From Eubacterium ventriosum (GTDB taxonomy: Bacteria; Bacillota; Clostridia; Lachnospirales; Lachnospiraceae): 64,000 nt of DNA. Both the position numbers and the translations under genes were made by a program. The stretch is from positions 1,375,501 to 1,439,500 of the forward strand of contig NZ_CP102282.1 of NCBI RefSeq assembly GCF_025150745.1, given 5' to 3'. Below the pieces are notes generated by a model. It worked only from the letters and a program-made list of their open reading frames with translations, was not told the DNA's origin and did not search any database. Of the stretch, positions 1 through 12,965 are shown piece after piece. Numbering within the stretch: position 1 is the stretch's first letter; each line of letters opens with the position of its first letter.

Positions 1-69
1 ATATTGTGTATGAACTTGAATAATAATCATATTTTTTAGAAAATATTTTACCAGTTAGCATAAAATAAT

Positions 70-97
70 TTGACAAATAAAAAAATAAAAGTTAAAT
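70..97 (+). promoter_or_regulatory. Candidate sigma-70-type promoter of glyQS
   Basis: A perfect TTGACA at 70-75 is followed after 16 bp by TTAAAT at 92-97. This places a transcription start roughly 45 bp before the glyQS start codon. The upstream sequence in the window is too short to exclude a T-box leader; no T-box is visible between this promoter and the gene. Confidence 0.5.
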
Positions 98-147
98 TAA
101 GAAAAATCATAATAGAAAATAGAAAAAGTAGAAAAGGAAGAAATGAC

Positions 148-1545
148 ATGGAAAAGACAATGGAAAAAATTGTAGCACTTGCAAAAAGCAGAGGATTTGT
201 ATATCCGGGCTCAGAAATTTACGGTGGACTTGCAAATACTTGGGATTATGGTAACTTAGGTGTTGAATTAAAGAACAATGTAAAAAAGGCATGGTGGAAG
301 AAATTTATTCAGGAAAACCCTTATAACGTAGGTGTTGACTGTGCAATTTTAATGAATCCACAGACTTGGGTAGCATCAGGACATCTTGGCGGATTCTCAG
401 ATCCATTAATGGACTGTAAAGAGTGTCATGAAAGATTTAGAGCTGACAAGATTATTGAAGACTATATGGCTGATAATGGTATTGAAGCTGAAGGCTCAGT
501 TGATGGTTGGACACATGAACAGATGGCTGATTACATAGAAGAGCACAAGATTGCATGTCCTACATGTGGAAAGCACAACTTTACAGAAATCCGTGAATTT
601 AACCTTATGTTTAAAACATTCCAGGGTGTAACTGAGGATGCTAAGAATACAGTATACTTAAGACCTGAAACAGCTCAGGGAATTTTCGTTAACTTTAAGA
701 ATGTTCAGAGAACATCAAGAAAGAAGATTCCTTTCGGAATTGGTCAGGTTGGTAAATCATTTAGAAATGAAATTACACCTGGTAACTTTACATTCAGAAC
801 AAGAGAATTTGAACAGATGGAATTAGAGTTCTTCTGTGAACCAGGAACAGACCTTGAATGGTTCCAGTATTGGAGAGCTTTTTGCCGAGACTGGTTATTA
901 AGCCTTGGAATTAAAGAAGATGAAATGAGACTTCGTGATCATTCACCTGAAGAATTGTGCTTCTACTCAAAGGGAACAACTGATATTGAATTTTTATTCC
1001 CATTTGGATGGGGCGAACTTTGGGGTATTGCTGACAGAACAGATTATGACCTTACACAGCATCAGGAACTTTCAAAACAGGATTTAACATATTTTGATGA
1101 TGACAAGCATGAAAGATATGTTCCATATGTTATTGAACCATCACTTGGTGCGGACCGTGTAACATTAGCTTTCTTATGTGCAGCTTATGATGAAGAAAAT
1201 ATCGGAACAGAAGAAAAACCTGATATGCGTACAGTTTTACATTTTCATCCTGCACTTGCACCTGTTAAGATTGGTGTATTGCCTTTGTCAAAGAAATTAA
1301 ATGAAGGTGCTGAAAAGGTATTTGCAGAACTTAGCAAGTATTATAACTGTGAATTTGATGACAGAGGAGCAATTGGAAAGAGATATCGTCGTCAGGATGA
1401 AATCGGAACTCCATTCTGTGTAACATATGACTTTGATTCAGAAGAAGATGGAGCAGTTACAGTACGTGACCGTGACACAATGGAACAGGAAAGAATTAAG
1501 ATTGAAGATTTGAAAGAATACTTTGAACAGAAATTTGAATTCTAA
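148..1545 (+). CDS. glyQS: Glycyl-tRNA synthetase, dimeric alpha2 (eukaryote/archaea-like) type
   Basis: Charges tRNA-Gly with glycine in the cytoplasm; class II aminoacyl-tRNA synthetase. The start chosen is ATG 148, which has AAGGAAG seven bases upstream; the frame is open further upstream but those codons lack a ribosome binding site. The 465-residue product is the usual size for this form. Motif 2 (FRNEI, about residues 205-209) and motif 3 (GADR ending at Arg337) are clear. An insertion holds two Cys-x2-Cys pairs (DCKEC and CPTC) that may bind zinc. The C-terminal third is the anticodon-binding domain. It stands alone between its own promoter and terminator. The same window carries two tRNA-Gly(GCC) genes, its substrates. 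Identity is near certain. Confidence 0.97.
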
Positions 1546-1568
1546 TAAAAATAATACAATTTTTAGAG

Positions 1569-1596
1569 AAAGGCTACCTAAGAGGGTGGCCTTTTG
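1569..1596 (+). terminator. Rho-independent terminator of glyQS
   Basis: The stem AAAGGCTACC (1569-1578) pairs with GGTGGCCTTT (1585-1594), with one T-G wobble, and runs into a short T tract. It lies 24 bases after the glyQS stop codon. Confidence 0.8.
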
Positions 1597-1712
1597 TTAT
1601 GAAAAAGACTAATTATGTTAGACAAAAATAAGTCTAAATAATGATTTTTATGCTGAATTTTAAAAATAAATGAAAAAAATCCTAAATAGAGAGTAAAAAG
1701 CACAAAAACTCT

Positions 1713-1740
1713 TTGGATAAAAACGTTTCTATTATATAAT
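1713..1740 (+). promoter_or_regulatory. Candidate promoter of the GH30 gene with a cre-like core
   Basis: TTGGAT (1713-1718), a 16-bp spacer and a perfect TATAAT (1735-1740) form a plausible promoter. The spacer contains AAAACGTTTC, similar to the core of CcpA catabolite-response elements but with two departures from the consensus. Carbon-catabolite control of the glycosidase is therefore only a suggestion. Confidence 0.45.
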
Positions 1741-1832
1741 ATTCATAGAGGAATTGAGAAGGGGTTGGAGTAACTTGAATCAGTTGCCGTAAATGAAACT
1801 ATGTTTCAAATAATTAAAAGGCGAGGTGTAAT

Positions 1833-3218
1833 ATGAAACCAGTAGTTAAAGTTATCCAGACAGCGAAAAACGAAAAACAGGCATGGCGCAAGTTAGATGA
1901 TTTGGAATTGTTTAAATATTATAATTTCCGAATGAATACAGTGTCTGTTGACAGTAGCATAAGCTATCAGAAACTTTTGGGATTTGGAGGGGCTTTTACG
2001 GAAGCAGCAGCTTATACTTGGGCTAATGCAGATGAAAAATCAAAGGATGAAATCGTGAAAGCTTACTTTGATAAGGAACACGGATTAGCATATAATCTGG
2101 GAAGAACAACAATTCATGGATGTGACTTTTCGTTAGAACCATATACATACATTGAAGAAGGAGATCTTCAGTTATCGACGTTTGATATGTCAAGGGAAGA
2201 CAAGTGGCTGATACCTTTTTTGACAAGGGCAAAAGAAACAGCAGGACACAGTCTGGGAATATTGGCATCACCATGGAGTCCACCGGCTTTTATGAAAGAC
2301 AACAAAGATATTAATAACGGTGGCAGACTTTTAAAGAAAAACTATGCAACATGGGCTGAATATATGGTTAAGTATGTTGAGGGAATGAAAGAACGTGGCA
2401 TAGAAATAGATATGATTAGTATCCAGAATGAGCCGGCTGCAAAACAGGAATGGGCATCATGTAAGTATGAGGCTGATGAAGAAGCGGAGTTTGCAGTTGA
2501 CTATCTTTATCCTGCATTAGAAAAAAGAGGATTGCAGGACAAAGTTAAAATTGTTATTTGGGACCACAATAGAGACTTAATGTTTAGAAGATTAAATGAG
2601 TCAATGGCATATCCGGGAGCTAGAGAAAAGGTTTGGGGAGCAGCGTTCCATTGGTATGTTTCAGATAAATCAGAAATTCTTACAATGGTTCATGAAAAAT
2701 TTCCTGAGAAACATTTATTATTTACAGAGGGCTGTGTTGAATTAGTGAATAATTCAGGCGGAACAAGTTCAAAGGCAGGAATCGGTGCATGGAAACATGG
2801 AGAAATCTATGGAAGAAATATTATAAAAGATTTCAATAACTATAATGAAGCATGGATTGATTGGAATCTGCTTTTAAATGAAATCGGCGGTCCTAACTAT
2901 GTAGGAAACTATTGTGAAGCACCGGTAATGTATGATAGGAATACAAAAGAAATAATGTACAACAGTTCATATTACTATATTGGTCATTTTTCAAGATATA
3001 TTGAACCGGGAGCAGTGAGAATCTGCTGTAGAAATGATGTGGATAAGGGATTATATTCAGTATCATTTAAAAACCCTAATGGAGATATTGTTACAGTGGT
3101 TCAAAATGAGTTGAACAGAAAGCAGAGATTAGCTTTGGTTGTTGATGGACAGGGAACAAACACGGAAATACCTGCTCATTCAATTACAACATTTATAACA
3201 AAAAATAGTCAGGAATAA
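1833..3218 (+). CDS. Glycoside hydrolase family 30 (glucosylceramidase/beta-glycosidase-like), cytoplasmic
   Basis: A 461-residue retaining glycosidase of the GH30 clan-A TIM-barrel type. The N-terminal motif GFGGAFTEA (about 50-58) is typical of the family. The acid/base Glu is expected at residue 200 in SIQNEP and the nucleophile at Glu299 in LLFTEGC. There is no signal peptide, so it should act on imported beta-glycosides rather than on polymers outside the cell. The C-terminal 80 residues form the usual beta-sandwich. The start ATG follows GGCGAGGTG. It is monocistronic, between its own promoter and a strong terminator. GH30 covers beta-glucosidase, beta-xylosidase and related activities; the substrate cannot be read from the sequence. 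Confidence 0.9.
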   Translation: MKPVVKVIQTAKNEKQAWRKLDDLELFKYYNFRMNTVSVDSSISYQKLLGFGGAFTEAAAYTWANADEKSKDEIVKAYFDKEHGLAYNLGRTTIHGCDFSLEPYTYIEEGDLQLSTFDMSREDKWLIPFLTRAKETAGHSLGILASPWSPPAFMKDNKDINNGGRLLKKNYATWAEYMVKYVEGMKERGIEIDMISIQNEPAAKQEWASCKYEADEEAEFAVDYLYPALEKRGLQDKVKIVIWDHNRDLMFRRLNESMAYPGAREKVWGAAFHWYVSDKSEILTMVHEKFPEKHLLFTEGCVELVNNSGGTSSKAGIGAWKHGEIYGRNIIKDFNNYNEAWIDWNLLLNEIGGPNYVGNYCEAPVMYDRNTKEIMYNSSYYYIGHFSRYIEPGAVRICCRNDVDKGLYSVSFKNPNGDIVTVVQNELNRKQRLALVVDGQGTNTEIPAHSITTFITKNSQE

Positions 3219-3227
3219 TTTTCTTAA

Positions 3228-3273
3228 ATGCCCTAAACCCCTTTAAATATAAAGAGTTTAGGGCATATTTCTT
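3228..3273 (+). terminator. Rho-independent terminator after the GH30 gene
   Basis: ATGCCCTAAAC (3228-3238) pairs perfectly with GTTTAGGGCAT (3256-3266), followed by a T-rich tail. Eleven perfect base pairs make this a confident terminator. Confidence 0.9.
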
Positions 3274-3274
3274 C

Positions 3275-3302
3275 TTGACTATGAGATTGTCTATGTTATA
3301 AT
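3275..3302 (+). promoter_or_regulatory. Strong extended -10 promoter of ppdK
   Basis: TTGACT (3275-3280), 16 bp spacer, TATAAT (3297-3302) preceded by TGT, so an extended -10 element. The resulting leader before ppdK is about 160 nt. Confidence 0.75.
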
Positions 3303-3469
3303 TATTTCATAGGTGAGATTGCGTCTTTTTTTATGGAGTTGATTATCAACTATGATATAAGCAGTTTTTGCTTAGCTGGTCTCATCATTAATCGATTATA
3401 TGAGTTGTGTATAGGAAAGCCATTCCTTCAACTCATAACATAAAATACAGTTTTAGGAGGAAAAAACAG

Positions 3470-6097
3470 ATGGCAAACAAATGGGTATACCTTTTCAGCG
3501 AAGGTAATGCTAACATGCGTGAACTTCTTGGTGGTAAAGGTGCTAACCTTGCAGAAATGACAGGCTTAGGACTTCCAGTACCTCAGGGATTCACAATTAC
3601 AACAGAAGCTTGTACTCAGTACTATGAGGATGGCAGAGAGATCAATGAAGAAATTCAGGGTCAGATCAATGAATACATCGTAAAGATGGAAGAAATCACA
3701 GGAAAGAAATTCGGTGATAAAGAGAATCCTTTACTTGTTTCTGTTCGTTCAGGAGCTAGAGCTTCTATGCCAGGTATGATGGATACAATTCTTAACCTTG
3801 GTCTTAACGAAACAGTAGTTGAAGCAATTGCTGCTAAGTCAGGAAATGCTCGTTGGGCTTGGGACTGCTATAGAAGATTCATCCAGATGTACTCTGATGT
3901 AGTTATGGAAGTTGGTAAGAAGTACTTTGAAGAACTTATCGACAAGATGAAAGCTGATAGAGGTGTTCAGCAGGACGTAGAACTTACAGCTGATGACTTA
4001 AAGGAATTAGCATCACAGTTCAAGGCTGAATACAAAGAAAAAATCGGAGAAGATTTCCCAGATGATCCTAAGGAACAGTTAATGGGAGCTATCAAGGCCG
4101 TATTTAGATCATGGGACAACCCACGTGCTAACGTATACCGTCGTGACAATGATATCCCTTATTCATGGGGTACAGCTGTTAACGTACAGTCAATGGCATT
4201 CGGTAATATGGGTGATGATTGTGGTACAGGTGTTGCATTTACAAGAGATCCTGCTACAGGTGAAAAGCACTTAATGGGTGAATTCTTAAAGAATGCTCAG
4301 GGTGAAGACGTAGTTGCAGGTGTTAGAACACCAATGCCTATCGCTCAGATGGAACAGGAATTCCCAGAAGCATTTGAAGAATTTGTAAAGGTTTGCAAGA
4401 CTCTTGAAGATCATTACAGAGATATGCAGGATATGGAATTTACTGTTGAAAACAGAAAGCTTTACATGTTACAGACAAGAAATGGTAAGAGAACAGCTCA
4501 GGCTGCTTTAAAGATCGCTTGTGACCTTGTTGATGAAGGCATGAGAACAGAAGAAGAAGCTGTAGCTATGATCGATCCAAGAAACTTAGATACATTATTA
4601 CATCCACAGTTTGATGCAGCAGCTCTTAAGGCAGCTACACCAGTTGCTAAGGCACTTGGAGCATCTCCAGGAGCAGCTTGTGGTAAGATCGTATTCACAG
4701 CTGAAGACGCTGAAACTTGGAATGCAAGAGGAGAAAAGGTTGTACTTGTACGTCTTGAAACATCTCCAGAAGATATCACAGGTATGAAGGCATCACAGGG
4801 TATCTTAACAGTTCGTGGTGGTATGACATCACATGCTGCAGTAGTAGCCCGTGGTATGGGTACATGTTGTGTATCTGGTTGTGGCGACATCGTTATGGAT
4901 GAAGCAAACAAGAAATTTACATTAGCTGGAAAAGAATACCATGAAGGAGACTTTATCTCAATCGATGGTTCTACAGGTAATATTTATGATGGTATCATAC
5001 CTACAGTTGATGCAACAATCGCTGGTGAATTCGGAAGAATCATGGGATGGGCTGATAAGTTCAGAACACTTAAAGTTAGAACTAATGCAGATACTCCAGC
5101 TGATGCTAAGAAAGCTAGAGAACTTGGTGCAGAAGGTATTGGTCTTTGCCGTACAGAGCATATGTTCTTCGAAGAAGACAGAATCGCTGCATTTAGAGAA
5201 ATGATTTGTTCAGATACTGTTGAAGAAAGAGAAGAAGCACTTGAAAAGATTCTTCCATATCAGCAGGGAGACTTCGAAGCTCTTTATGAAGCTCTTGAAG
5301 GATGTCCAGTAACAATCAGATTCTTAGATCCACCTCTTCATGAATTCGTTCCAACTGAAGAAGACGATATTAAGAAACTTGCTGAAGCTCAGGGCAAATC
5401 AGTAGAAGAAATTAAGGGTATTATCCAGGGATTACATGAATTTAACCCTATGATGGGACACAGAGGACTTCGTCTTGCTGTAACATATCCAGAAATCGCT
5501 AAGATGCAGACTAAGGCTGTTATTCGTGCTGCTATCAACGTACAGAAGAAGCACAGCGATTGGACAGTTAAGCCTGAAATCATGATTCCATTATCATGTG
5601 ATGCTAAGGAATTAAAATATGTTAAGGATATCGTAGTAGCTACAGCTGATGCTGAAATCGCAGCAGCAGGTGTTGAACTTGAATACCAGGTAGGTACAAT
5701 GATCGAAATCCCTAGAGCAGCTCTTACAGCTGACGAAATCGCTAAGCAGGCTGACTTCTTCTGCTTCGGTACAAACGATTTAACACAGATGACATACGGA
5801 TTCTCAAGAGATGATGCTGGTAAGTTCTTAGATGCTTACTATGATGCTAAGATCTTCGAAAACGATCCATTTGCTAAGTTAGATCAGGTTGGTGTTGGTA
5901 AGTTAATGGAAATGGCTATCAAACTTGGTAAGCCAGTTAACCCTAACCTTCACGTAGGTATCTGTGGAGAACACGGTGGAGATCCATCTTCAGTAGAATT
6001 CTGCCATAAGATTGGTCTTGATTATGTATCATGTTCACCATTCCGTGTACCTATTGCTAGATTAGCAGCAGCTCAGGCAGCTATCGCTAACAAGTAA
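3470..6097 (+). CDS. ppdK: Pyruvate, phosphate dikinase
   Basis: Interconverts pyruvate + ATP + Pi and phosphoenolpyruvate + AMP + PPi; in many anaerobes it serves a PPi-linked glycolysis. The start is ATG 3470, nine bases after AGGAGG, giving 875 residues, the normal length. Domains in order: ATP-grasp nucleotide-binding domain, the swivelling phosphohistidine domain with catalytic His455 in GGMTSHAA, and the PEP/pyruvate TIM barrel with the catalytic Cys at 832 in HVGICGEHGGD. The gene uses many ATC, GCT and AAG codons, unlike its AT-rich right neighbour, which suggests high expression. The last 27 bases of the gene and its terminator are duplicated 6.5 kb downstream (see the repeats at 6071 and 12570). 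Confidence 0.98.
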   Translation: MANKWVYLFSEGNANMRELLGGKGANLAEMTGLGLPVPQGFTITTEACTQYYEDGREINEEIQGQINEYIVKMEEITGKKFGDKENPLLVSVRSGARASMPGMMDTILNLGLNETVVEAIAAKSGNARWAWDCYRRFIQMYSDVVMEVGKKYFEELIDKMKADRGVQQDVELTADDLKELASQFKAEYKEKIGEDFPDDPKEQLMGAIKAVFRSWDNPRANVYRRDNDIPYSWGTAVNVQSMAFGNMGDDCGTGVAFTRDPATGEKHLMGEFLKNAQGEDVVAGVRTPMPIAQMEQEFPEAFEEFVKVCKTLEDHYRDMQDMEFTVENRKLYMLQTRNGKRTAQAALKIACDLVDEGMRTEEEAVAMIDPRNLDTLLHPQFDAAALKAATPVAKALGASPGAACGKIVFTAEDAETWNARGEKVVLVRLETSPEDITGMKASQGILTVRGGMTSHAAVVARGMGTCCVSGCGDIVMDEANKKFTLAGKEYHEGDFISIDGSTGNIYDGIIPTVDATIAGEFGRIMGWADKFRTLKVRTNADTPADAKKARELGAEGIGLCRTEHMFFEEDRIAAFREMICSDTVEEREEALEKILPYQQGDFEALYEALEGCPVTIRFLDPPLHEFVPTEEDDIKKLAEAQGKSVEEIKGIIQGLHEFNPMMGHRGLRLAVTYPEIAKMQTKAVIRAAINVQKKHSDWTVKPEIMIPLSCDAKELKYVKDIVVATADAEIAAAGVELEYQVGTMIEIPRAALTADEIAKQADFFCFGTNDLTQMTYGFSRDDAGKFLDAYYDAKIFENDPFAKLDQVGVGKLMEMAIKLGKPVNPNLHVGICGEHGGDPSSVEFCHKIGLDYVSCSPFRVPIARLAAAQAAIANK

Positions 6098-6176
6098 TAC
6101 ACTGATTAGTGAAAAGAATATAATTACTTAAAATAATGAACTCCTGTATACTAGAAATGGTGTGCAGGAGTTTTTT
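6071..6176 (+). repeat. Left copy of the 106-bp island-flanking direct repeat (ppdK 3' end + terminator)
   Basis: This copy comprises the last codons of ppdK, its stop codon, the 3' untranslated segment and the terminator hairpin. The second copy at 12570-12675 differs at only four positions over 106 bp. Similarity stops abruptly upstream of GCTCAGGCAG and within the T tract. This is what is expected when an element inserts at the 3' end of a gene and regenerates that end. Confidence 0.9.
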
Positions 6177-6179
6177 TTT
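6139..6179 (+). terminator. Rho-independent terminator of ppdK
   Basis: AACTCCTGTATAC pairs with GGTGTGCAGGAGTT around a short loop and is followed by a run of nine T. A second copy with compensating changes lies at about 12638-12675. Confidence 0.9.
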
Positions 6180-6232
6180 CACATAAAATAGTGTAAAATC
6201 AAAATTATAATATCTTATGGAAGAAAAAAATA

Positions 6233-8308
6233 ATGGAATTAATTTATGTATATATAGAAAAATTTGATAATTTTATATTTAAGCAAGGAATTCAATTATC
6301 AAATGATTTTAATATTGAAAATAATAATGGAGAATTACTAATAAAAAGAAATAAGGATTATTAAAAAAATTTTTATGGAGAAAATATAAGTAATATTTCT
6401 GTATTAGTAGGTAAAAATGGTTCAGGTAAAACCACTATATTGGACATATTAGGAATGGATAGAGAAGATAGATTGAAAAATTCGATAGAAAAGAAATGTG
6501 TAAAAGATGAGTATTTTTTGTTGTATTATATAGGAAAAAATGATGCTGGGGATGATATGTATGGTATAGAAGTAATGAGGGAAAATGTGCTAAGTAATAT
6601 GATTAAAAATATTGATAATGGTACAGATGATGAAATATATGATAAATCTAAAACGTCTATAGGTAAAGTTTATAAATATGAAAATGAAATATTGAAAAGT
6701 ATTAATAAACATTATTTTGATTATCGTGTAGAAAATAGAAAACTCAGTGAGTTGATAAGATATTCATATATAGGTGAGAGTTATAGATATAGTAGTAGAA
6801 ATAGAAGTTACAGAAGGTCTGAAGATGGATATATAGCAAATAGAAGGCTAGTCTCTAATCCGTCTATGTATAAAAAATATTTAACCATTAACAAATGTAA
6901 GAATGGAGAGATAAGAGGGTTCGAATGTAATAGTGTTAAAATGAAGTTTTATGATGACATAGATTATTCAGGCTATTATATAAATGATGATAAGCGTGAA
7001 AATTATAAAAAATATATAGAAAGAATAGAAAATAAATTATATCTTAGAAAAAGAATACATTTAAATAGAAATAACGAGAAAGAAAACTTAGATAATAAAA
7101 CAGAAAAAGAAAAGTATATTTGTGATTTATATACGAGATATATAATGGATATGATAGTAAATGGATTATATTCACGATGTAAAGATGATAATGTAATAAA
7201 TGAACAGCATATAGAAGAAAAAGTAACTAATGAAGATATATTATATATTTATGGTTTAAATAGTATAGACAGTTCAATTAATAAATTTGGGTTACCAGAA
7301 AATTATAAATTGGAGTTGAACAAGATAGAAGAAATAATTGATAAAGTAAAATACAGAGAAACGAAAGATATAGAAGTTTTAAAAATTATTTCTAGATACA
7401 TAGCAAGCAGAATAAATACAATTCCAAGTATAGGTGGTTTTGCATACGTAGAGGCATTAGAGAAAATTGTAGAAAGTTTGCAACAAATTCCAGAAGAGTA
7501 TTTTAATAAAGATGGAGTAGAGGTTATTATTGATGAAAAACAAAATTCGAGTATAATAAACCTATTGAATAATTATAGTTATTTTATTGACGCAAGGCAG
7601 AATGAAGTTGACTCAGATATTGGATATAAGTTTATAATTAGATTTGAAATGCTTTCTGAAGGGGAAGAAAAGTTTCTTGACATAATAGCTAAAATAGATG
7701 ATTGTATTGAAAATAACAATGATGCTGAATTAATAGTGTTATTGTTAGACGAGCCTGACCAGGCGTTACACCCTGAATGGTCTAGAAGATTCATTGATAT
7801 TATAGTACAGGTTATACAATCAATAAAATTTCAGGGAAACATACAGTTGATTATGTCGACACATTCACCATATTTGTTATCAGATATATTGCCAACAAAT
7901 GTTTTTCTGTTAGATAGAAGAACAAAAGATAAAAAATTGAGTGTAAAAAGACTAGATGTAAAATCAAGTTCTTTAGGAGCAAATATATATGATTTAATGA
8001 AAAATAACTTTTTCATGGATAACACTGTTGGAGAATTTATTACAAAAAAAATTAATAAAGTGATAATGCAAATAAACGAAGCAAATTTAAAAGAAAAAGA
8101 GCTTAATAGTATCGAATATTTTATTGAACAAATAGGAGAACCTATTATACGAAAAGGAATGAAAAAGCAATTAGCTGAAAAGAAAAAGCAATTGAAAATA
8201 TTTAATAATACAGAACAAATATTACAAGCAATTACAAACGAACAGGATAGAAAAAAAGTGGAGGAAGTGCTTAAGAATCTGGCAAAAAAAGAAAATGATA
8301 CATATTAA
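6233..8308 (+). pseudogene. AAA/ABC-type ATPase of a Septu-like (PtuA-like) pair, interrupted by an in-frame TAA
   Basis: The frame opens at ATG 6233, nine bases after GGAAG, runs 43 codons to TAA at 6362-6364, and then continues open to 8308. After the stop come the Walker A box GKNGSGKT (6410-6433), a long lysine/tyrosine-rich insertion, the ABC-like signature LSEGEE, Walker B VLLLDEPD and the switch histidine in STHSPYLL. The order matches the SMC/RecF-like ATPases of anti-phage pairs such as PtuA and OLD-like proteins. No TOPRIM domain follows. Any start downstream of the stop that avoids the nonsense codon (first candidates TTG 6440 or ATG 6455) lies after Walker A, so the protein would be inactive. 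Only this one lesion is visible, so it is either a recent null mutation or a sequence error. It overlaps the nuclease gene by 14 bp. Confidence 0.75.
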
Positions 8309-9356
8309 GATAGAAAAAGAAGAAATAAAAAAGATACAGAAAAGGTGGAGTAAATGGTTTTTTAGAGAAAAACAAATTGAAGAATTTATAGAAATTATGG
8401 ATTCAGATGATAGTTTTAGAAAAATGATATTCAAAAATGGTAAAGAGTATTTGTTGTGGAAAAACGAATTCATTCAAAATAGAGAGGTAATAAAAAATAC
8501 ATCATGGAAACGGTATATAATTGATTATTTCTTTAGAAATTTATCAAAAGAAGATGAAGTGATAAGAATATATAAAAAAGATATAAAGAAGACAACTAGA
8601 GAATATTTAATAAGGAAATATGAAAATTATAGGAAGAGTGTAGCATTCATTGATATCGTTAAAATACTTAATGTGCAGGTATGTCCATATTGTAATCGAA
8701 ATTTTTTAGAAAGTTACACTATAGTGGATGAGTATGGGAAAAAGAAAAGAATGTTTAAGGGAGATATAGACCATTATTATTCGAAAAATGAAATACCAGC
8801 TTTAGCACTTTCTTTTTATAATTTAGTTCCGTGTTGCAAAATTTGTAATCACGAAAAATTGAATTTTACAAAAAGAACTTTTAATCCTTATTATGATTAT
8901 GAGAATAAAGAATATAAATTTTGTATAGAGTTATATACAAATTCTGACGAGAGAGATATTAATAATGAAAAAAATATTGATGATGTTGAAAACAGAAGAT
9001 ATGATTCAACAGTTTGGCAAGGAATTTCAGACAACTTTAAAATAAAAATTAGAGATGTTAACGGCGAAAATATAAGTGAACATATGGAAAATTCAAATTT
9101 AATTTTTAGATTAGAGAAAAAATACAATCAATCAAAAGAATACGCAAAAGAAATTATACGAAAAAAATATATTTATCCAGAAACATATAAAGATGATATA
9201 TTAAAAAATTTTGGGTATATATTCAAGGATGAATCGGATTTATTGGAAACCTTTTATTCTATTTCTAACAGTGAAGAATTCTCAAAAAATATTCCGTTAT
9301 CTAAGTTTACTAAAGACATATTAAAACAGTTGGGGATATTAGATGAAACAGAATAA
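8295..9356 (+). CDS. HNH endonuclease, PtuB-like partner of the upstream ATPase
   Basis: A 353-residue protein with an HNH (beta-beta-alpha-metal) core: CPYCNRN at about 130-136, GDIDHYYSK at 156-164 with the likely catalytic His160, and LVPCCKICNHEK at 178-188. The two Cys-x2-Cys pairs (130/133 and 181/184) should hold a structural zinc. The start codon lies inside the ATPase gene in another frame (14-bp overlap), so translation is probably coupled. ATPase plus HNH nuclease is the architecture of Septu-type anti-phage systems and of the accessory pair of some retrons; no reverse transcriptase is present here. The gene itself is intact. Assignment to Septu rests on architecture, not on a family search. 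Confidence 0.75.
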   Translation: MIHIKIEKEEIKKIQKRWSKWFFREKQIEEFIEIMDSDDSFRKMIFKNGKEYLLWKNEFIQNREVIKNTSWKRYIIDYFFRNLSKEDEVIRIYKKDIKKTTREYLIRKYENYRKSVAFIDIVKILNVQVCPYCNRNFLESYTIVDEYGKKKRMFKGDIDHYYSKNEIPALALSFYNLVPCCKICNHEKLNFTKRTFNPYYDYENKEYKFCIELYTNSDERDINNEKNIDDVENRRYDSTVWQGISDNFKIKIRDVNGENISEHMENSNLIFRLEKKYNQSKEYAKEIIRKKYIYPETYKDDILKNFGYIFKDESDLLETFYSISNSEEFSKNIPLSKFTKDILKQLGILDETE

Positions 9357-9419
9357 GTAATTAAATTTGATTTTATAATATGTAATGTAAATAAACATAA
9401 TATGACAGGAGAGATACAT

Positions 9420-9650
9420 ATGAGTAGAACAAAGCAGTCGACTAGAGCATTGGTAAAAAAAATGTATGAAAAAACAGGGTACGGACAAGATATAAATGAA
9501 GGTACTGTAACTGCATCAAAAACATTTGAAAGGAAATTGAGTAAGTTTTTGAAGTTTATGTTTAAATTCTATTTAGATGAAACATATAAAGCTGAAAAAT
9601 TGCAAAAAGAATCGTATGAAATATTAACTGATACAATGACAAAGAGATGA
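9420..9650 (+). CDS. Small basic protein of unknown function
   Basis: Start ATG 9420 has AGGAGAG six bases upstream; an in-frame ATG six codons earlier lacks such a site. The 76-residue product is rich in lysine and predicted helical, with a hydrophobic/aromatic stretch (KFLKFMFKFYL) in the middle that is too short and charged for a membrane helix. I recognise no family. It begins a run of three closely packed small genes (the next overlaps it by ATGA) about 60 bp after the HNH gene, so it could be cotranscribed with the defence pair. Codon use (ATA, AGA, AAA) matches the island rather than ppdK. Confidence 0.6.
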   Translation: MSRTKQSTRALVKKMYEKTGYGQDINEGTVTASKTFERKLSKFLKFMFKFYLDETYKAEKLQKESYEILTDTMTKR

Positions 9651-9853
9651 TTCAGGTTTTGAAATCTAGAAGTTTAAAAAGAGGAGAACTTAAGACTGAT
9701 TTAGCAGTAGTGGAGGAAGTAGATAATGCTTGGATTAGTGCTTGCGTGGACCCAGTATATGATGAAGAATATGAGAAAAGATATTCTGCAAGAGCAATAA
9801 ATAAAAGTGTTGATGAGCTTAGATTAGAATTAAAAAGGAGGATTAAATATTAA
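9647..9853 (+). CDS. Small charged protein of unknown function
   Basis: A 68-residue product starting in an ATGA overlap with the stop of the preceding gene, a classical arrangement for translational coupling. The sequence is rich in Asp/Glu and Arg/Lys, with no membrane segment or cysteine motif apart from a single Cys. No family is recognised. The overlap and the same codon style as its neighbours are the main reasons for treating it as real. Confidence 0.5.
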   Translation: MIQVLKSRSLKRGELKTDLAVVEEVDNAWISACVDPVYDEEYEKRYSARAINKSVDELRLELKRRIKY

Positions 9854-9867
9854 ATAGAAAGAGATTT

Positions 9868-10188
9868 ATGGCAGTAATAGTAAAGCAATATGATGAATTA
9901 GTTAAGGCTGTAAAAAATAAGGAAAGAACCATTTATGCAGTGGAAAGTGCTTATAGAAAAATAAGACATAGTTATAAATACTATGGGGAGATAACAGGAA
10001 AGCCAGTAATAAGAAATCGTATATGTTGGATGGCAACTGGTCAAGAAGGAGCTATGATTATGAACGATTATATGGATTTTCGGGTAAGAAGAATAAAAAA
10101 GAAATTAGGGGACGAGTTAGAAAGCTATACAATACAATTGAATAAGGAAGAAAAAAGAATAGAGTTGACTAGAAAAAAGTCAAAATAA
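9868..10188 (+). CDS. Hypothetical protein, probable member of the same small-gene operon
   Basis: A 106-residue, strongly basic protein, preceded by AGAAAGAG and 14 bases after the previous stop. The middle contains a tryptophan-methionine segment around RNRICWMATGQEG, and the C-terminus is a charged helix. No family is recognised and no signal peptide is present. Together with the two preceding small genes it forms a compact block in the island between the defence pair and the secreted proteins. It might be a small regulator or an accessory of the pair, but nothing in the sequence proves either. Confidence 0.5.
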   Translation: MAVIVKQYDELVKAVKNKERTIYAVESAYRKIRHSYKYYGEITGKPVIRNRICWMATGQEGAMIMNDYMDFRVRRIKKKLGDELESYTIQLNKEEKRIELTRKKSK

Positions 10189-10347
10189 AAGTGGAAATGG
10201 TAATACATTTTTATCAATACAATTATTGAGTAATCAATATGAAATGTAATGGTATTGCCGAAAGGTTGATGTCATTATTTTTATAGAAGGACATACGTTT
10301 GTAAAGCCAAAAAGATAGAATATTTATTGAAAAAGAAAGGAGCTAAT

Positions 10348-10806
10348 ATGCAAAAAATTAAGAAATTAATAGCTGTATTATTATCAGTAGCAATGTTGTT
10401 AGGAACTTTTACAATGTTAAATGCAGATAGTGTTTATGCAAAAGGCAAAAAAACATATTATAGTGGAAATTTTCTTGGGAAAGTAAAAGATGTTGATAGG
10501 ACAGGAATTATTTCAAAAGTAAAATTCACAAAGACAAAAATGACGATAACTGGTTCTTTAAAAAAAGGGAATAGTAGAGAATCAGCTTGGGATGGGAAAG
10601 CAAAATATTGTAAAAAGAAAAAAAGAACTTTTAAATTAGCAAAAAATGTTAAATTTTATGAAGCAGGAGGTATGGCAGGTGAAGTAAAAGATACAAAAAG
10701 TAGTTTTGTAAATTTTTGCAAGCAGTTAAATAAAAATCCAAATGGGTTAGAGTTTTGGTTTATTGTAAAAAATGGAAAAGTTACAAAAGTAGTCATCAGT
10801 AGTTAA
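10348..10806 (+). CDS. Small secreted lysine-rich protein
   Basis: Start ATG 10348 has AAAGGAG five bases upstream; a TTG further upstream in the same frame is not needed. The 152-residue product begins with a signal peptide (KK, hydrophobic core, then SVYA-K around residue 32). The mature part is small, with repeated KKK tracts and alternating hydrophobic residues suggesting a beta-rich fold, and two cysteines. No family is recognised. A similar secreted, lysine-rich but distinct protein follows 27 bp downstream, so the two may act together at the cell surface. They lie inside the repeat-bounded island. Confidence 0.65.
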   Translation: MQKIKKLIAVLLSVAMLLGTFTMLNADSVYAKGKKTYYSGNFLGKVKDVDRTGIISKVKFTKTKMTITGSLKKGNSRESAWDGKAKYCKKKKRTFKLAKNVKFYEAGGMAGEVKDTKSSFVNFCKQLNKNPNGLEFWFIVKNGKVTKVVISS

Positions 10807-10833
10807 TTAGATTTTAGAGATTGGAGAAAAGAT

Positions 10834-11268
10834 ATGAAGAAAAGAAAATTTTTAGTATTGGTAATGTGTATAGTAATGATTTTTTCAACAGTTACGATAT
10901 CAGGCACAACGAACGTTGAAGCGAAGGCAACAAAAAAAGCTTTAAAGTATTTAAAAGGAACCTGGCATACATGGGGCATGCCAGGTTATAAGGTCAAGTT
11001 CACAAAAAAGTATGTGAAATACTATGCTGATTATGACAGCAATTTCAACCAGTTATCTAGTAAAAAACTTGGTAAGTTAGAGTTTAAGCATAAGATTGTT
11101 TCCACAAAAAAGAAAAAAGGAAAATGGACAATTAAAGTCAAGAGAGGGAAAGGGTCATACTACTATTTTAAGACATCGGCTAATGATAAGAAGGTTTTAG
11201 AATATTGGGGAAAACTTAAAGATGGCAATACATATTCTGGTTCAGATAGTCTAGAGAAATGGAAATAG
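10834..11268 (+). CDS. Small secreted lysine-rich protein
   Basis: A 144-residue product with a clear signal peptide (MKKRK start, hydrophobic core, NVEA-K near residue 31). The mature region has a WHTWG motif followed by alternating Lys/Tyr beta-like strands, reminiscent of lipocalin-like or beta-barrel small domains, but no named family can be claimed. GGAG lies upstream of the ATG. It is 27 bp after another small secreted protein and is followed by a strong terminator, so the two genes probably form one transcription unit at the middle of the island. Confidence 0.65.
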   Translation: MKKRKFLVLVMCIVMIFSTVTISGTTNVEAKATKKALKYLKGTWHTWGMPGYKVKFTKKYVKYYADYDSNFNQLSSKKLGKLEFKHKIVSTKKKKGKWTIKVKRGKGSYYYFKTSANDKKVLEYWGKLKDGNTYSGSDSLEKWK

Positions 11269-11281
11269 AAAAGTATGCAGA

Positions 11282-11323
11282 AATAAGGCTAACGTTCAAT
11301 TAACGAGCGTTAGTCTTATTTTT
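11282..11323 (+). terminator. Rho-independent terminator after the secreted pair
   Basis: AATAAGGCTAACG (11282-11294) pairs with CGTTAGTCTTATT (11308-11320), with one wobble, followed by TTT. It separates the secreted pair from the tiny membrane-peptide genes. Confidence 0.85.
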
Positions 11324-11343
11324 ATGCAGAAAGGATGCGAATA

Positions 11344-11433
11344 GTGAAAGAATATTTAATAGGATTGGGGATAGGAGTATTGTTAATCAATCTTATTTAC
11401 ACAAATGTAGTTTTGTGGGAAAGGAATACATAA
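11344..11433 (+). CDS. Very small putative membrane peptide (29 aa)
   Basis: A GTG codon at 11344 follows AGAAAGGA at eight bases; the open frame encodes 29 residues, mostly one hydrophobic helix (LIGLGIGVLLINLIY) with charged ends. An ATG three codons upstream sits directly on the ribosome binding site and is less likely. Size and composition resemble single-pass membrane microproteins such as small toxins or regulators. It is followed one base after its stop by another small frame. Expression is inferred only from the ribosome binding site and hydrophobicity. Confidence 0.4.
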   Translation: MKEYLIGLGIGVLLINLIYTNVVLWERNT

Positions 11434-11434
11434 T

Positions 11435-11545
11435 ATGAATGATAAAAAGGTAAAGATGATTTTATCGGCGATAACTATGACAATAACAATTTTAAAGACT
11501 GTTGTGCAACATAGAAATCAAGTTAATAAGGAGAAAAGCAGATAA
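11435..11545 (+). CDS. Very small amphipathic peptide (36 aa)
   Basis: The ATG at 11435 follows AAAGGA at about nine bases and the frame encodes 36 residues: a charged start, a hydrophobic stretch (ILSAITMTITIL) and a basic C-terminus. The gene lies one base after the preceding 29-codon gene and ends directly before the ATG of the 115-residue gene, so three genes are joined without gaps. No family is recognised. Confidence 0.4.
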   Translation: MNDKKVKMILSAITMTITILKTVVQHRNQVNKEKSR

Positions 11546-11893
11546 ATGATAAACGAGTATTGGACAAAAAAACAAAATATACAACTCCAAAATGATTGTA
11601 AAAAATACAATATTCCTTTGATGGTGAAGAAAGAAATCGAAAGAGTAATAGAAATTTTAGATTCAAATTATGGCATGGAAAGAAGCAAAAAAGATTATGG
11701 TGGATGTGTGTACTTGTTGGTGTCTAATGAAGAAAAGGAACATAGCAAAATTCTAGAAAAATATTTTCTGGATGAAGAAGATTACGAATTTAAAGATATA
11801 TTAATTGAAAATGAGGAAGAAATATGGATTTCAGAGACATATATTACATCAACAGAGTATAGCATCATTATTATATACAAAATTAATAAATGA
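11546..11893 (+). CDS. Hypothetical acidic protein
   Basis: A 115-residue cytoplasmic protein, rich in Glu and Asp. The start ATG follows immediately on the stop of the previous small frame; AAGGAG lies about 13 bases upstream, slightly far. The sequence shows an N-terminal helical region and a C-terminal alternating pattern ending in SIIIIYKINK. No signal peptide, membrane segment or catalytic motif is seen. The abutting upstream peptides and this acidic protein could form a peptide/partner module, but that is a guess. No family is recognised. Confidence 0.5.
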   Translation: MINEYWTKKQNIQLQNDCKKYNIPLMVKKEIERVIEILDSNYGMERSKKDYGGCVYLLVSNEEKEHSKILEKYFLDEEDYEFKDILIENEEEIWISETYITSTEYSIIIIYKINK

Positions 11894-11979
11894 AAATGTT
11901 TAATTGATATTTAATAGACAGATAAGTATAATATAAGTGAAAACAAAAAGCGTAGACGGATATGGAAAGAGGTGTTAAA

Positions 11980-12288
11980 GTGCAAATAGAAGATTTGAAA
12001 AAATACATTTTAGAAAACGCTATTCGATGGTCTGCACATTGTTTGGAGAGAATGCAAGAAAGGGATATTTCCAGAGCAGATGTAAAAAAATGTGTTTTGG
12101 AAGGAGAAATTATTGAAGATTATCCAGATGATTTTCCGCATCCTAGTTGTTTGATTTTTGGATTTACTATAAATGATAAAATAATACATGTTGTTGCTGG
12201 AAGTGATGTAAAATATATTTATATTATTACAGCATACTTCCCTAATACAATTAAATTTGAAAATGATTTGAAAACAAGGAGGAAATAG
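11980..12288 (+). CDS. DUF4258 / MqsR-like toxin of a type II toxin-antitoxin pair
   Basis: About 102 residues from GTG 11980, which has AAAGAGGTG five bases upstream; an in-frame ATG at 11962 has no usable ribosome site. The HCLERMQERDIS start, the central EDYPDDFPHPSCLIFG and the conserved C-terminal ITAY are typical of DUF4258, a compact RelE/MqsR-like fold expected to cleave mRNA. The partner with a YgiT-type zinc finger begins two bases after the stop, with its ribosome binding site inside the toxin gene. Toxin-first order is typical of MqsRA-like and HicAB-like modules. The pair lies at the right end of the repeat-bounded island, where it could stabilise it. Confidence 0.8.
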   Translation: MQIEDLKKYILENAIRWSAHCLERMQERDISRADVKKCVLEGEIIEDYPDDFPHPSCLIFGFTINDKIIHVVAGSDVKYIYIITAYFPNTIKFENDLKTRRK

Positions 12289-12290
12289 TT

Positions 12291-12518
12291 ATGTGTATGT
12301 TTTGTAAATGTGATACAGTAAAAGAAAGTACTACAACTCATGTTGTTAATTACAAAAATAGTATAATTGTAATTAAAAATGTTCCTTGTGAAGAATGTGA
12401 GCAGTGTGGAGAAAAGTATTACACAGATGAAGTTGCTGAGCAGTTAGAAAAAATGGTTAACCTAGCAAAGCAAATGATGCAGGAAATTGCCGTTTTAGAT
12501 TATTCAAAGGTAGCATAA
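12291..12518 (+). CDS. MqsA-like antitoxin N-terminal domain (YgiT-type zinc finger protein)
   Basis: A 75-residue protein with Cys pairs near residues 2-7 (CMFCKC) and at 33-39 (CEECEQCGE), the zinc site of YgiT/MqsA antitoxins, followed by a helix. The usual C-terminal helix-turn-helix DNA-binding domain of full MqsA is absent, as in many short partners of DUF4258 toxins. It therefore neutralises the toxin but may not repress the operon itself. AGGAGG lies upstream in the toxin 3' end. It ends about 50 bp before the right flanking repeat of the island. Confidence 0.8.
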   Translation: MCMFCKCDTVKESTTTHVVNYKNSIIVIKNVPCEECEQCGEKYYTDEVAEQLEKMVNLAKQMMQEIAVLDYSKVA

Positions 12519-12569
12519 AAAGATAAAGCAGAAAGAGGAGTGGCTGTAGTAAGCCTATGATATGTAACG

Positions 12570-12675
12570 GCTCAGGCAGCTATTGCTAACAAGTAATACA
12601 CTGATTAGTGAAAAGAATATAATTACTTAAAATAATGAACTCCTGTATACCGGAAATGGTGTACAGGAGTTTTTT
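12570..12675 (+). repeat. Right copy of the 106-bp island-flanking direct repeat
   Basis: Matches 6071-6176 at 102 of 106 positions, including the final codons and stop of ppdK, the untranslated stretch and the terminator hairpin. The differences are one silent C-T change in the coding part and three in the terminator, including the loop. The rest of ppdK is absent, so the copy cannot be a tandem gene duplication. It forms the right boundary of the island; after it comes the Fic remnant. Confidence 0.9.
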
Positions 12676-12689
12676 GCATAAAAATAAAT

Positions 12690-12965
12690 TGTGTTACATT
12701 TATATGGGGAGCAAGAGGACACTTCTTCTGGAATGGTAATAAACGAACCGGTTTATTGATTGAAAATAAGATTTTGATTTTTTCAGGTGCAGGTATTATG
12801 ACTATTATGGATAAATATATTGAACAGTTTAATTCGCTATTGCTGTAGTATTATAATATTGGAAGAAGCGAAGAACTACAGATGTTGTTAGATTATTTTG
12901 ATGGCAGAGAACCTGAAAGTCAGCTACCACATTCTCTTTTGACGGAAAAGATGCAGGAAAGATAG
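12690..12965 (+). pseudogene. Remnant of a Fic-family gene
   Basis: No intact gene lies between 12519 and 13096. One frame (through 12717-12965) shows the Fic core HFFWNGNKRTG followed by a helix-like stretch (NKILI...GAGI...DKYIEQFN) typical of Fic proteins. A TAG at 12846-12848 interrupts it, and it continues to TAG 12963. No start codon or N-terminal half is left. The short region 12966-13026 also looks like degraded coding sequence in another frame (GHYAETDVKNAIDGKEVN), unidentified. This debris directly abuts the right island repeat and may be the ancestral neighbour of ppdK. Confidence 0.6.

Follow-up and report, generated by a model that had tools for sequence, protein, structure and literature searches.

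The locus comprises two genes on the plus strand of the window, the whole 64,000-nucleotide stretch of the Eubacterium ventriosum genome that was analyzed: a frame for a PtuA-like ATPase and, behind it, the gene of a PtuB-like HNH nuclease. The original prediction had described an ATPase and HNH pair with a 14-bp overlap, and this description was exact, as the frame at 6233-8308 and the gene at 8295-9356 share exactly 14 nt on the same strand. The features of the locus and its borders were as follows, in window coordinates.

6060-6176, plus strand: left direct repeat, the 3' end of a dikinase-like gene and its terminator (117 nt, 92% identical to 12559-12675)
6233-8308, plus strand: PtuA-like ATPase frame (ATG at 6233; the closing TAA ends at 8308)
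6233-6361, plus strand: opening 43 codons of the ATPase frame, N-terminal beta strands (translation; aligned to the intact N termini of relatives L045 and L046)
6362-6364, plus strand: in-frame TAA at codon 44, upstream of Walker A (translation; whole-genome search)
6365-8308, plus strand: rest of the ATPase frame, 647 codons and stop (PDC-M62A, E value 2.1e-38)
6410-6433, plus strand: Walker A, GKNGSGKT (sequence)
7655-7669, plus strand: ABC signature, SEGEE (sequence)
7748-7753, plus strand: Walker B Asp-Glu of LLLDEPD (sequence)
7856-7870, plus strand: STHSP, an H-loop-like motif (sequence)
8295-9356, plus strand: PtuB-like HNH nuclease gene, 353 amino acids, intact (ATG at 8295; PDC-M62B, E value 4.2e-49)
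8682-8849, plus strand: HNH core, CPYC (residues 130-133), D159-H160, N176, and CKICN (181-185) (invariant alignment columns, 20 sequences)
12559-12675, plus strand: right direct repeat, a partial gene 3' end and the terminator copy (repeat comparison)

Translation of the ATPase from 6233 gave 43 codons, the TAA at 6362-6364, and then 647 open codons spanning Walker A. The original prediction had read the ATPase as one open frame and missed this stop at codon 44. The first in-frame ATG, GTG, or TTG past the stop is the TTG at 6440, which lies downstream of Walker A. When the PDC-M62A profile was searched against the whole genome, seven matches were found, and the sole near-full-length match was this frame with one TAA inside it. 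The codon corresponding to the stop is a sense codon in the alignment with the nearest relatives, L045 and L046. Translation of the remaining 647 codons showed no further stop or frameshift; thus, the lesion looks recent. In an AlphaFold model of the ATPase with the stop read through, residues 1 to 44 formed four strands. The early TAA probably leaves the defense pair switched off in this E. ventriosum genome.

The ATPase had been described as a P-loop protein with an ABC-like signature, and the motifs supporting this description (Walker A GKNGSGKT, the signature SEGEE, Walker B LLLDEPD, and STHSP) were all held by a single frame. The long insertion reported between Walker A and the signature is real: 409 residues separate the Walker A lysine from the signature serine. 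In 17 relatives the same distance ranged from 330 to 502 residues; the insertion is therefore ordinary for the PDC-M62 family and not the oddity it had seemed. Its supposed richness in lysine and tyrosine held for tyrosine, which made up 9.3% of the insertion versus 2.8% of the remaining protein (9.2% and 9.0% of the insertion in the two nearest relatives), and failed for lysine, at 10.1% versus 11.6%. The AlphaFold model of the ATPase had a mean pLDDT of 58.7, with most of the insertion below 50. The insertion and the nuclease N terminus showed no covariation in 21 pairs (Spearman 0.23, P = 0.32), a comparison made without the L109 pair, in which the signature pattern was unmatched.

The nuclease translation contains the motifs CPYCNRN, DIDHYYSK, and CCKICNHEK in the order originally quoted. 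An alignment of 20 nucleases, including that of the window, had 16 invariant columns. The spacing of these motifs had been regarded as unlike that of the short PtuB proteins; however, the CxxC motif, the DH/EH site, and the asparagine aligned with those of the PtuB chain 9n69_F of the retron type I-A complex with short gaps only. What differs is the N terminus, since the first cysteine of 9n69_F is residue 47, preceded by 46 residues as counted from the alignment, versus 129 residues in the window nuclease (122 to 279 in 21 pairs). In this alignment, the nuclease core has much the layout of the PtuB core, and the difference consists of about 80 extra N-terminal residues.

A profile search and a structure prediction of the pair had been proposed as checks of its identity. 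In the search, both proteins matched defense profiles. The best PADLOC match of the ATPase was PDC-M62A (2.1e-38, 130.7 bits, versus 2.3e-18 and 64.7 bits for PtuA1), aligned over profile positions 58 to 582 of 597 with the query taken from 6365 on. The best match of the nuclease was PDC-M62B (4.2e-49, 166 bits, versus 1.9e-5 and 22.4 bits for PtuB1), with residues 1 to 348 of 353 placed on profile positions 1 to 325 of 328. These E values, together with 35 other one-frame pairs, a few of which are near each other, place the similarity of the locus beyond chance. In Pfam, the ATPase was above the cutoff with AAA_15 and AAA_21, and the HNH match of the nuclease was below it. The NCBIfam cutoffs were missed by PtuA (31.2 bits against 500), PtuB (18.7 against 150), and TIGR02646 (16.7 against 52.15), models that carry names of the retron form. 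Against solved structures, a family profile of 18 ATPases gave 1.3e-22 for PtuA of retron Ec78 and 7.8e-20 for Septu PtuA 8ee4, with AriA trailing these chains at 1.1e-13. A profile of 16 nucleases gave 9.4e-7 for retron PtuB 9n69_F, and other HNH-domain proteins followed at 0.0016 and weaker; an earlier profile of 20 nucleases had placed 9n69_F marginally at 0.0037, with an unrelated Dsb protein at 0.0058. Judged from these profiles, both proteins are related to PtuA and PtuB.

The structure prediction was less informative. The nuclease model was poor (mean pLDDT, 56.9), and the ATPase model led to PtuA weakly. Foldseek ranked retron type I-A PtuA first and Septu PtuA from rank 18 for the ATPase model, in long alignments with TM-scores near 0.2 and root mean square deviations near 19. 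In VIA-align, PtuA had a Z score of 15.6 and SMC/Rad50 heads had scores of 13.1 to 14.8. Because PtuA leads the SMC heads by less than 1 Z unit, the fold alone is indecisive, and the sequence profiles decide; the fold of the model weakly suggests the same relationship of the ATPase to PtuA. A tree placed the window ATPase with the M62 rows, apart from the short PDC-M01/PtuA-like rows, with an SH-aLRT value of 100 for the M62 split in a quick method that used no bootstrap and on a tree with many long branches. Of nine rows labeled short by length, two (L110 and L111) fell on the M62 side, and L111 is M62A by PADLOC. Six ATPases from the 35 one-frame pairs (L045, L032, L100, L152, L111, and L109) were scanned with PADLOC, and each had PDC-M62A as its best match. 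Altogether, these comparisons indicate that the pair is of the PDC-M62 kind, longer than Septu PtuA/PtuB and distantly related to it. The proposed PtuA/PtuB type is thus supported by the profile relationship and has to be amended in its name, as the best PADLOC matches are PDC-M62 rather than PtuA1/PtuB1 and the NCBIfam cutoffs are missed. Likewise, the suggested variant type does differ from PtuA1/PtuB1 and is already catalogued as the candidate PDC-M62.

We compared the locus with known systems. PDC-M62, a two-gene candidate of PADLOC, has the same order of ATPase and then HNH gene on one strand, both matched near full length; the window differs in that its ATPase gene is interrupted by the TAA at codon 44. 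Septu PtuA/PtuB of E. coli (PDB 8ee4 and 8eea) likewise consists of an ABC ATPase followed by an HNH nuclease with the CxxC/DH/N/CxxC arrangement. However, the window pair is under the NCBIfam PtuA/PtuB cutoffs, and its Walker A lysine and Walker B are about 440 residues apart, compared with 273 (K43 to D316) in the portion available of the Septu EcB88 report (PMC13096335). PtuA/PtuB of the type I-A retrons (Ec78/Eco7 and Ec83) are the closest solved structures by profile for both proteins, and the HNH core is similar. These retrons carry a reverse transcriptase and msr-msd next to PtuAB, whereas none of the eight downstream open reading frames (ORFs) scanned (9402-12515) or of the three upstream ORFs (70-6094) had a reverse-transcriptase match. 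Rfam at the gathering threshold gave only two tRNAs in the window, which is weak evidence regarding msr-msd. AriA of PARIS shares an AAA_15/AAA_21-type ATPase; however, the window partner is an HNH protein and not the TOPRIM protein AriB. The strict label of canonical Septu or retron was therefore rejected from the missed NCBIfam cutoffs, the lack of a reverse transcriptase among the 11 neighboring ORFs, and the separation in the tree.

The PDC-M62 kind is already catalogued and treated as Septu-like. In the available text of a study of the Bacillus cereus group, 203 double calls of Septu and PDC-M62 by PADLOC were handled as duplicates with the Septu name retained, and PDC-M62 was termed an unpublished candidate (PMC11811056). 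The first PADLOC paper, in the part available, makes the retron form Septu type II (PMC8565338). No experimental test of PDC-M62 was found in the accessible portions of the Septu literature, subscription papers and preprints aside, and none of the papers listed in a search for broken Septu genes was relevant by its title or abstract opening.

Next, we examined the distribution of the pair. The nuclease was used for finding relatives because the ATPase profile PDLC04734 was unspecific, matching 11 of 14 control genomes, compared with 1 of 14 for the nuclease profile PDLC04743. The PDC-M62B profile matched 13 of 391 class genomes, 10 of 250 family genomes, 12 of 398 phylum genomes, and 18 of 392 order genomes, each count taking in the own genome and weak matches. 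With the window nuclease as the query, none of 59 other relatives matched, including 22 from the same genus, and a nuclease scan of genome contigs confirmed 1 of 91 stretches. Matches were present in 29 of 72,556 plasmid records and in 1 of 50,697 phage records, an unannotated fecal contig, and tblastn confirmed at least 23 loci in viral contigs. Viral contigs searched with the window ATPase alone and plasmids searched with 6000-12800 by megablast gave no match. The original prediction had named a housekeeping role, or a lack of similarity to defense proteins, as grounds for abandoning it. A housekeeping assignment was rejected on the patchy distribution and the defense profiles as best PADLOC matches. 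The nearest relatives, L045 and L046, belong to the same family and have intact ATPase-HNH pairs, with identities to the window of 49% and 48% for the ATPase and 55% and 52% for the nuclease. A DUF1016/YhcG-type nuclease and a RhuM-family protein adjoin their nuclease genes; thus, only the ATPase-HNH pair is common to the window, L045, and L046.

The integrity of the frames was then compared across 67 loci, including the window, after overlap between the lists was merged. Surroundings were taken from all 12 other class genomes, 8 of 9 family genomes, 10 of 11 phylum genomes, and 7 of 17 order genomes; the ten order genomes omitted had weak matches (E value of 1.5e-13 or worse), and two of the seven taken overlapped with other lists. 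Six of the 29 plasmid records, the sole phage record, the 23 listed viral loci, and L002 were added. At 35 loci, an M62-type ATPase in one frame accompanied a full nuclease; at 5, the nuclease was full and the ATPase frame was split (5 of 40 family pairs). These 40 pairs are not wholly independent, as L104 and L105 are close to each other. The other 27 loci were excluded: 25 lacked a nuclease or had at most a weak ATPase match, and L047 and L048 were cut at contig ends. The split ATPases were those of the window, of L023 and L155 with an in-frame TAA each, of L017 with a frameshift upstream of Walker A and a full nuclease frame, and of L016 (5712-9753, minus strand), where two tandem M62-type ATPases precede one HNH gene and the upstream copy is whole while the nuclease-adjacent copy is frameshifted. 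None of the 67 loci combined a broken nuclease with a whole M62-type ATPase; at L153 the nuclease was split, and the ATPase was not found there. If breaks follow gene length (ATPase share, 0.65), the probability that all five fall in the ATPase is 0.116. The proposition that the ATPase breaks more often than the nuclease was accordingly rejected as not shown, and some of the M62 ATPase breaks may be assembly errors.

The pair lies in a stretch of low G+C content. The ATPase has 24.9% G+C and the nuclease has 24.1%, with 26.8% for 6177-12558 as a whole, 37.4% for 1-6097, and 34.0% for 13091-64000. The upstream gene (3407-6097) encodes pyruvate phosphate dikinase (Pfam PPDK_N and PEP-utilizers_C). 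The direct repeats are identical at 108 of 117 positions, or at 102 of 106 over 6071-6176 and 12570-12675, and the repeat has two matches in the whole genome, both bounding the low-GC stretch. Among 23 genomes of the genus, many of which are incomplete, the terminator pattern was doubled in this genome and in G008, single in G002 and G005, and absent from the other 19. Because the two copies in G008 (L089) surround different genes, the dikinase terminator may be an insertion hotspot. No match to 6180-11950 was found by blastn (1e-5) at 13 same-genus loci following the dikinase gene (13 of 22 genomes; several of these loci end early), and one of them, L097 of G005, matched at 11952-12281, the region of the DUF4258 gene, which in G005 lies about 430 nt past the dikinase terminator. 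No integrase was found in the eight ORFs scanned (9402-12515).

Other genes of this stretch were also inspected. Three small ORFs (82, 68, and 106 amino acids) lie directly downstream of the nuclease at 9402-10188, with no convincing match in Pfam, PADLOC, NCBIfam, or PHROG. Two adjacent small ORFs at 10327-11268 have, by eye, signal-peptide-like N termini and lysine-rich bodies and match no Pfam family above the cutoff. At 11962-12518, a DUF4258 protein stands beside a small MqsA-like protein (below the cutoff; phrog_29304, 9.9e-36), and the two possibly form a toxin-antitoxin pair.

In the likeliest reading, the locus is a recently inactivated defense operon with an intact nuclease gene. With good confidence, we interpret it as a two-gene antiphage operon of the PDC-M62 kind that was presumably acquired recently within a small island of low G+C content and inactivated by the early nonsense codon in the ATPase. 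It is unlikely that a sequencing or assembly error, or an allele present in a minority, accounts for the stop and that the M62 pair works in the living organism. The intact pairs of the two same-family relatives, the lack of any other lesion in either gene, and the reading of the stop in one genome of the species would fit such an error. Nevertheless, the genome was assembled as a single 2.86-Mb contig, and only a substitution could be the error here, given that the reading frame is identical on either side of the TAA. In addition, four other loci pair an ATPase break with a full nuclease frame, although these are possibly errors too. Production of the ATPase despite the stop, by readthrough or by initiation at a rare ATA or ATT located after the stop and ahead of Walker A, is quite improbable. 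The 647 codons open past the stop would allow it, and GGAG (6377-6380) lies 5 nt ahead of the ATA at 6386-6388, which is in frame and precedes Walker A. However, the GGA of this stretch is the codon for a glycine common to both nearest relatives, L045 and L046, and the stretch therefore needs no regulatory reason. A product from such a start would also be missing the four strands modeled at the N terminus, and TAA terminates ordinary genes here too, for example, the dikinase-like gene.

Instead of this kind of defense pair, the two genes could also encode a PARIS-like system or an SMC/Rad50-like ATPase of the repair type together with a nuclease. For this the ATPase offers its match to the AriA profiles of PADLOC (2.9e-20) and to SMC/Rad50 heads (Z scores of about 13 to 14.8). 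The partner, in contrast, matches PDC-M62B with HNH motifs and is not of the TOPRIM or Mre11 type, and PtuA stands above AriA by profile. The distribution is patchy like that of mobile defense genes (13 of 391 class genomes, weak matches included), and the nuclease had no match in 22 further genomes from the genus. We consider this possibility highly improbable.

Several published results bear on how an intact pair of the PDC-M62 kind may act. In the available portions of these sources, immunity by Septu EcB88 requires Walker A and Walker B in PtuA as well as the HNH residues in PtuB, and this system cleaves the variable loop of tRNA-Tyr on infection (PMC13096335). PtuA or PtuB of retron-Eco7 expressed singly caused no growth arrest, and PtuAB of the E. 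coli ATCC 25922 Septu system is said to target nicked DNA (PMC11555353). For Ec83, breakdown of msDNA frees PtuAB, and a review table gives Septu a 6:2 stoichiometry, a PtuA hexamer with two PtuB (PMC12948488). By analogy, an intact pair would form an ATP-controlled complex in which the SMC/Rad50-like ATPase head, with its long insertion, keeps the HNH nuclease bound. On infection, the nuclease would be set free or activated to attack tRNA or DNA, such that phage growth stops. The window ATPase would not work without Walker A and the N-terminal strands, and the HNH nuclease without its ATPase is probably silent.

A more speculative idea is that loss of the ATPase with the HNH gene retained is a recurrent, selected off form of M62, for example, an escape from autoimmunity, in which the nuclease keeps a separate role or recombination switches the pair on again, and that islands at the dikinase terminator enter the genus by recombination; we regard this idea as improbable. 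An odd-looking locus has been assigned to a catalogued, little-studied candidate defense family that resembles PtuA/PtuB in its HNH core and ATPase head and differs in the greater length of the ATPase insertion and of the nuclease N terminus. Profile matches alone would score this genome as protected despite the nonsense codon in its ATPase gene, and the intact pairs of the relatives make the M62 mechanism directly testable.
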